64,000 nt of DNA from Pontixanthobacter gangjinensis (GTDB taxonomy: Bacteria; Pseudomonadota; Alphaproteobacteria; Sphingomonadales; Sphingomonadaceae). Below the pieces are notes generated by a model. That model searched no databases. It was not told the origin of the DNA and saw only the letters and a list, made by a program, of their open reading frames with translations. The DNA is taken from the NCBI RefSeq assembly GCF_009827545.1, contig NZ_WTYS01000001.1, forward strand, positions 1,079,772-1,143,771, given 5' to 3'. The position numbers were made by a program, and so were the translations under genes. Below are positions 3,248-20,670 of the stretch, piece by piece; position 1 is the first letter of the stretch, and each line of letters begins with the position of its first letter.

Positions 3248-3314
3248 CATACGAGAAAAATTTCACTTTCGCGAGAAACGGTTCTGACTACCGGATCATG
3301 GCCGAATGTTGGAC

Positions 3315-3424
3315 TTAGGGTTACACCTGTAACCTAACACATCTCGGGCAACTCATTGAAAAGCAATGAATATGCTGTTGGATAACGGGTGACACATTTG
3401 CTCGCCCTTACAATTTGGGCGGAT
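3315..3424 (+). repeat. dispersed ~110-bp element, copy 1 (possible small RNA)
   Basis: Aligns without gaps over 90 bases with 20454-20543: the first 27 bases are identical, the last 30 match at 27, and the middle 33 match at 19. The 5' part holds the palindrome GGTTACA-CC-TGTAACC. After the aligned part comes a hairpin CGCCC-N9-GGGCG (3403-3421). No reading frame is conserved between copies. This copy lies in the 350-base space between the SDR terminator and the 3' end of the sodium-channel gene; I see nothing else in that space. Function unknown. Confidence 0.65.
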
Positions 3425-3535
3425 GCGATATGTGATCAGAGCAACTACAATGTGAAAGAATGGCAAGAGATTAGCGAAGCTAGGGCATGTAGGAAAGCGT
3501 CGGTAAGTAGGGTGGCAAGCGGACGCCAATGCTGC

Positions 3536-20380: not shown

Positions 20381-20453
20381 GAGAAATATTGTGCTGCGAA
20401 TCCGGTATCATCTGTAACCAGTGGGTTCAAGCGGTGTGCCCTCTTTGTAGGCT

Positions 20454-20563
20454 TTAGGGTTACACCTGTAACCTAACACACCTCGGCCAAGCCTTTGGAA
20501 GAAAGTAATTAGCCTGTTGGAAAACGGGTTACAGATTTGCTCGGCCCTGCGATTCAGGGTTTT
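20454..20563 (+). repeat. dispersed ~110-bp element, copy 2 (possible small RNA)
   Basis: Second copy of the element at 3315-3424. The identical 27-base 5' block starts here and includes GGTTACA-CC-TGTAACC. After the aligned 90 bases comes CCCTG-CGATT-CAGGG followed by TTTT (20545-20563), a terminator-like hairpin whose stem bases differ from copy 1 yet still pair. The copy lies in a ~390-base space between the PLP enzyme and the SLC13 transporter genes. Confidence 0.65.
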
Positions 20564-20624
20564 GGAAGGGCAAGTTCGGAACCACGATTTCAAAGAGCGA
20601 ACCGGGTTTTACAGCCGCAGTCCA

Positions 20625-20670
20625 CTGTAGGAAAACGCCGGGAGCCAGTGCCCGGTTTCCGTTCCTACAG
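20625..20670 (-). terminator. 46-bp inverted repeat across the SLC13 stop codon
   Basis: CTGTAGGAA at one end pairs perfectly with TTCCTACAG at the other; inside, CCGGG pairs with CCCGG. The transporter stop codon is part of the outer stem. There is no U run, so it is either a Rho-dependent end, an mRNA-stabilising hairpin or a small palindromic repeat. Confidence 0.45.

Follow-up and report, generated by a model that had tools for sequence, protein, structure and literature searches.

Dispersed gene-less units in Pontixanthobacter gangjinensis carry candidate recognition sites for a small-terminase paralogue and may be linked to its gene transfer agent

Analyses of two intergenic elements in the window, a 64,000-nucleotide stretch of the Pontixanthobacter gangjinensis genome (C1:1079772-1143771 of a single 2.888 Mb contig), indicated that they belong to a family of about 16 dispersed copies, each with the appearance of a docking site for a DNA-packaging protein of viral origin. 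The reading that we tentatively favor, while placing it a little short of an even chance, is that these are gene-less units bearing candidate recognition sites for a paralogue of the small terminase subunit (TerS), that they are co-expressed with the gene transfer agent (GTA) of this bacterium, and that they perhaps serve as packaging starts.

A whole-genome BLAST search with copy 1 returned 15 full-length matches and one rearranged copy (~16 in total), with E values for the non-self matches ranging from 1e-19 for the best to 1.4e-8 for the weakest, which placed the repeat beyond chance. The initial annotation had described a two-copy element, a count that the search overturned, and the further copies for which it had advised looking in the whole genome were found. 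Much else in that description held. The copies at 3315 and 20454 aligned without gaps over ~90 bases, were identical in their initial 27 bases and differed at three of the final 30; both were intergenic, and no small ORF was common to the gene-less copies, in agreement with its denial of a shared reading frame. Its extent of ~110 bp was too short, as the element continues ~90 bp beyond the stated end, to TGTAGGAAA (3488-3496; 20626-20634), and although it had been placed on the + strand, what resembles a transcription unit (a promoter motif and a boxA-like sequence) falls on the minus strand instead. A tandem repeat, GGCCTACTCGTTACGGG, was observed beside one copy, ~200 bp beyond the element.

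The whole unit is ~190 bp in length and contains a core of 92 bp, in which there were no indels in 15 of 15 full copies (Table 1). The mean pairwise identity of these copies was 97% at positions 4-30, 47% at positions 31-61 and 87% at positions 62-90, versus 25-26% in the flanks. The view of a constrained intergenic element, conserved at its ends and variable in between, was originally based on two sequences and was upheld across 15; the pattern in all of them indicated that selection maintains both the ends and the spacing of every copy. Each core has three GGTKACA motifs, two forming the inverted pair GGGTTACACCTGTAACC and the third situated 69 bp from the first. The T/G alternative within the motif varies independently at each of the three sites, with no compensation, which fits DNA recognition by one protein. 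The middle of the core has conserved islands (YAA, TGA and an A/T tract) that match the IHF consensus at one fixed position (mean 6.93 of 9 over the 15 copies), a score that none of 2000 column permutations equaled.

Table 1. Coordinates, in the window, of the features of the two copies.
Feature	Position	Strand	Basis
Copy 1, whole unit (core and minus-strand promoter region)	3306..3497	-	15-copy alignment; limits from conservation and TGTAGGAAA
Copy 1, core, 92 bp, conserved ends and variable middle	3315..3406	.	no indels in 15 copies
Copy 1, paired site GGGTTACACCTGTAACC, GGTKACA half-sites (two) in inverted orientation	3318..3334	.	copy alignment
Copy 1, IHF-like site, YAANNNNTTGATW on +	3349..3361	-	within variable middle; consensus and permutation test
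Copy 1, third site GGGTGACAC, 69 bp from first	3387..3395	+	copy alignment
Copy 1, weak boxA-like sequence, minus strand ATTCTTTCACAT	3450..3461	-	position equivalent to GCTCTTTGACAT of other copies
Copy 1, GCTA of promoter-like motif	3472..3475	-	exact TTTCCTAC-N13-GCTA
Copy 1, TTTCCTACA of promoter-like motif	3488..3496	-	9-mer almost confined to units in 225 kb of own DNA
Copy 2, whole unit	20445..20635	-	15-copy alignment
Copy 2, core, 92 bp	20454..20545	.	15-copy alignment
Copy 2, paired site GGGTTACACCTGTAACC	20457..20473	.	copy alignment
Copy 2, IHF-like site	20488..20500	-	consensus at fixed place
Copy 2, third site GGGTTACAG	20526..20534	+	sequence
Copy 2, boxA-like GCTCTTTGAAAT	20587..20598	-	unit alignment
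Copy 2, TTTTCCTACA of promoter-like motif	20626..20635	-	unit alignment

The copy at C1:1065195, ~14 kb before the window, was found to have a gene between its promoter and its core. In this copy TTTTCCTACA is 700 bp from the core, and between the two is an intact gene for a protein of 232 aa (C1:1064511-1065206; genes were called by simple codon usage) whose stop codon is the TAA within GTGTAACCC of the core and so lies inside the core. The 232-aa protein matched PHROG_4044 (terminase small subunit) at 7e-18 and, by hhalign (4.5e-22), the GTA TerS group, whose genes directly precede terL in the relatives G038 and G040, and tblastn identified phage homologues annotated as TerS with E values down to 4e-6. 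AlphaFold modeled the protein with a beta-hairpin, an HTH and a long helix, the latter two at a pLDDT of ~90 or more, and the named matches of Foldseek to BFVD viral models at E < 0.001 were mostly phage terminase small subunits. The best structural match in the PDB was Sf6 TerS (Z 7.6, 96 residues, rmsd 4.7), a Z score within the tool's ambiguous range that we regard as supportive only, and a PDB sequence search with the TerS alignment returned only stathmin-like coiled-coil noise. Together, the homology searches and the model indicated that the 232-aa protein is a small-terminase homologue, with a predicted N-terminal HTH and long helix as in phage TerS. A terS gene adjoins the core in this copy and in the case of the TerS-like genes of relatives, and is absent beside the other 15 copies in this genome, including both copies in the window. 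A second, diverged TerS-like gene of this genome (C1:1545684; PHROG_4044, 2e-23) has a Gly/His repeat in its C-terminal half.

Downstream of each gene-less core, at a distance of 80-190 bp, there is TGTAGGAAA(A) or a near match, which on the minus strand reads TTTTCCTAC and is upstream of the core. In most copies GCTA, exact or nearly so, stands at a fixed N13 after TTTTCCTAC. The promoter motif is followed in about eight copies by a GCTCTTTGACAT-type sequence, which we take to resemble the boxA antitermination signal. The 9-mer TTTCCTACA occurred almost only inside units in the 225 kb of the bacterium's own DNA that was scanned. The promoter motif of the units also precedes a stand-alone endolysin gene (C1:1249034), an arrangement that recurs in relatives, and the same motif was found before endolysin and TerS-like genes with reversed-pattern controls near zero. 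Elsewhere, TTTCCTACAAATAACC-N5-GGTTA was found before a gene pair of a capsule cluster, and TTTCCTACA(A/T)ATAACC-N5-GGTTA, kept in five genomes (e.g., G000:C1:665573), precedes genes for a small protein and a GDSL-like protein in a polysaccharide gene cluster. This pair might represent GTA head-spike genes, but the small protein had no sequence match among solved head-spike proteins.

The genome has its own RcGTA-like cluster (~C1:265895-280000), which is intact (TerS at C1:265895-266434, TerL, portal, capsid and megatron), with a capsid protein that matched Rcc01687 at 2.9e-86; for the detection of such clusters in these genomes the Pfam model GTA_TIM failed and DUF2460 succeeded. The leader of this main cluster carries a boxA-like sequence, CGCTCTTTGG. 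Based on the endolysin gene, the TerS-like genes and resemblance, the motif of the units is a presumed GTA promoter, and the units are likely to be under the control of the GTA programme. Phage TerS proteins use an HTH, whereas the TerS of RcGTA has none and binds DNA weakly and nonspecifically; TerS rings have been proposed to wrap ~100 bp, and in Rhodobacter the GTA lysis genes are outside the main cluster (PMC6854486). In Caulobacter, GafY together with IHF controls the GTA genes, as does GafZ, which is probably in an antitermination complex with NusA, NusG and NusE (PMC11150451).

Based on these observations, we infer that the TerS paralogue would bind the core, that the GTA would control the promoter and that packaging would start at the core. 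On the minus strand, the unit would consist of a dedicated promoter (TTTTCCTAC-N13-GCTA), a boxA-like sequence and a 92-bp cluster of three GGTKACA motifs with an IHF bend site. Once the GTA programme is on, the TerS paralogue would be made and would assemble on the IHF-bent cores, whose ~100 bp matches what a TerS ring is proposed to wrap. It would then recruit the GTA large terminase, and packaging would begin at ~16 chromosomal sites. The paralogue would have kept its DNA-binding domain, and its cognate sites would have spread as gene-less units. We propose that the natural function of the TerS/site pair is the choice of a packaging start. The wider reading is that the packaging start of this bacterium's own GTA is non-random and set by a dedicated HTH TerS and ~16 dispersed, gene-less, pac-like sites, that relatives have other site/terminase pairs, and that the sites determine which chromosomal regions undergo exchange; we consider this possible but doubtful. 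An HTH-bearing TerS paralogue tied by sequence to a family of sites is important as it makes the question of a GTA packaging start testable.

A BLAST search of 60 relatives found almost no copies at that sensitivity, and a pattern search identified three diverged copies, two of them in G005 and the third in G004. A database search with the core DNA had a single match in another species, Pontixanthobacter sp. CEM42 (apparently G005). The layout itself recurred in relatives with other sequences. TerS-like genes with TTTCCTAC upstream, nearly all as TTTCCTAC-N10-TCTGCCT, were identified in six relatives (G004, G005, G006, G009, G011 and G013), and most of these genes had a related motif cluster (e.g., GTGACACGGTGTCACCTTTGTCACC) at or near the stop codon. 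The pattern TTTTCCTAC-N13-GCY had 17 matches in G004, 14 in G007 and 11 in G005, versus 1 for the reversed controls, and most of the matches inspected were gene-less units, many with a boxA-like sequence, and with one of several cluster types. Cluster types differ between species, and in G004 and G005 the clusters of gene-less units match the ones that follow TerS genes in the same or the sister genome (z of 16-20 relative to shuffles). Another multi-copy type of cluster was observed in G007 and G005, consisting of GGATGTACTTCATCAACTAA and in most cases then CATCGTCACGCTGCGAATCGG, with the same promoter and a boxA-like sequence upstream; no cognate protein was found for the GGATGTACTTCATCAACTAA type. 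In addition, a site cluster was observed in the variable linker of the endolysin, within its reading frame, in G007 (GTGGTCCAAGTGGTCCATG) and in G022 (ATGTGTAACTTTCCAACAG, which is like the core described here). A unit also seems to be present at the 3′ end of rimO in this genome, G004 and G007, with differing cluster types, and the copy here (C1:2727662-2727758) is rearranged. In two congeners, G004 (C1:212000-231900) and G005 (C2:620000-639900), the GTA head-tail cluster is deleted or degraded, with transposase-like genes in its place and only tail genes left.

Several observations count against the cores being packaging starts. The main GTA cluster has no TTTCCTAC upstream of its TerS gene. 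G004 and G005 have lost most of their GTA head genes and yet retain many units, an argument against a strict GTA role if the loss is old, although it may be recent. There are ~15 gene-less copies for one TerS gene, which seems more than packaging needs. For known GTAs, published work describes near-random packaging of host DNA and reports no discrete start site (PMC6854486, PMC9632790, PMC7947584). Finally, a bank of operators for an HTH protein would give much the same pattern of motifs.

The main alternative is that the TerS-like HTH protein has turned transcription regulator and that the cores with IHF are operators downstream of GTA-type promoters, acting as a switch or roadblock, with the gene-less units being regulatory or titrating. 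A pair of inverted half-sites accompanied by an IHF site is an ordinary arrangement for an operator, clusters are found at the end of the TerS-like gene and, in G007, in the endolysin reading frame under the same promoter, and in Caulobacter 18 of 20 GafY-bound regions were co-bound by IHF (PMC11150451). However, convergent genes flank 8 of the 16 copies (versus 5 of 48 gaps in the background, p = 0.002), a setting that offers no host promoter to regulate, and in every copy but one the unit's own promoter, 80-190 bp upstream of the core, drives no gene. We consider regulation an unlikely explanation of the units, albeit one to be taken seriously. If the sites are operators, they would represent a regulon for which we found no description in the literature, and a packaging protein turned regulator.

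The initial annotation had favored a structured RNA with compensated stems, and this was not supported. The conserved blocks have two possible helices, neither with covariation beyond shuffles in the larger alignment. The covarying 3′ hairpin is present in both copies in the window but is not family-wide, as its position and stem vary between copies; of the 15 copies, 4 had a stem that outperformed shuffles at p < 0.05 (combined p of 5e-4 by Fisher's method), the hairpin was missing or unremarkable in the others, and there was no common hairpin. The T/G position of GGTKACA is the sole variable stem position and its pairing is broken in 5-6 of 18 sequences, which, with the independence of the T/G changes, is as expected of a protein-binding DNA motif. 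The minus-strand alignment fold was barely better than that of column-shuffled controls. The plus-strand fold was better than its controls, with a covariation term near zero, and the palindrome alone may explain this signal. Rfam gave no family match for the element, the weak, sub-threshold matches to RcsR1 and BjrC68 being elsewhere in the locus, and a known RNA family was therefore dropped.

A minus-strand transcript of the units is possible, given the conserved promoter-like motif and boxA-like sequence, and it could be that the units are small RNA genes of ~100-180 nt on that strand, transcribed with the GTA programme, with the core as the conserved part of the RNA. The retention of the promoter-like motif with its fixed N13, and of the boxA-like sequence, in gene-less copies and in relatives is consistent with such genes, as are the intergenic, often convergent, positions. 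Against them are the lack of covariation in the conserved blocks, a minus-strand fold near the column-shuffled level, the lack of an Rfam match or a shared terminator, and the uncompensated T/G change at three sites and the IHF consensus, both of which fit DNA recognition, and we regard small RNA genes as improbable.

Other identities for the element were also considered. The resemblance to an integron attC site (RYYYAAC...GTTRRRY) was set aside as the copies are dispersed rather than arrayed as cassettes, and the conserved blocks greatly exceed attC boxes in length. An operator of host-gene promoters is unlikely as half of the copies lie between convergent genes. A MITE or other transposon derivative was not supported, as the aligned unit ends are not inverted repeats and the gene-bearing copy encodes a TerS-like protein and no transposase. 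The core DNA had zero matches in phage, plasmid and virome sequences, and an origin from these was dropped on this basis.

Units were also found at orthologous loci in different species, namely at trhO (this genome and G005), downstream of a peptidase gene (this genome and G004) and at topA (this genome and G007). The unit at trhO is absent in G004 and G007, and some other species are empty at trhO and topA, with the exact boundaries of the empty sites blurred by intergenic divergence. Such presence and absence, the differing cluster types among species and the single gene-bearing copy among many gene-less ones in one genome would be expected of selfish units, in which a TerS gene with its site, and site-only passengers, have their own neighborhood packaged in GTA particles and spread like phage-satellite islands, but this is the least probable of the explanations because several units are common to species at orthologous loci, the contrast between the ends (97%) and the middle (47%) points to enduring selection in situ, neither terminal inverted repeats nor a transposase was found, and GTA delivery with homologous recombination would not by itself create new loci.

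The units in which we tentatively see candidate TerS recognition sites have features of several known systems. In phage lambda, cosB comprises three gpNu1 sites and an IHF site, and phage pac/cos packaging sites adjoin terS. The site described here is at a TerS gene in the gene-bearing copy, has repeated candidate motifs with an IHF-like site between them and is ~100 bp; unlike pac/cos, the units are present as ~16 dispersed chromosomal copies, most without a gene, with their own promoter motif and often a boxA-like sequence. Phage satellites (PICI/SaPI) redirect packaging with their own TerS, and a separate TerS with its own sites could likewise bias whose DNA is packaged; however, the units have one gene or none, and no integrase, replication or regulation genes. 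MITEs and BOX and ERIC elements are short, dispersed, intergenic, non-coding bacterial repeats, as are the gene-less units, which differ in the conserved ends with exact spacing, the promoter motif, the non-transposase gene in one copy and in that no terminal inverted repeats were found. As for RcGTA and CcGTA (PMC6854486, PMC11150451, PMC9632790), this bacterium has its own RcGTA-like head-tail cluster, the TerS of which is homologous to the protein of the unit; IHF, antitermination of the Nus type and lysis genes located separately are established traits of GTAs. In contrast to RcGTA, whose TerS is without an HTH and for which no discrete start sites have been reported, there is here an HTH-bearing TerS paralogue tied to a repeated DNA site.
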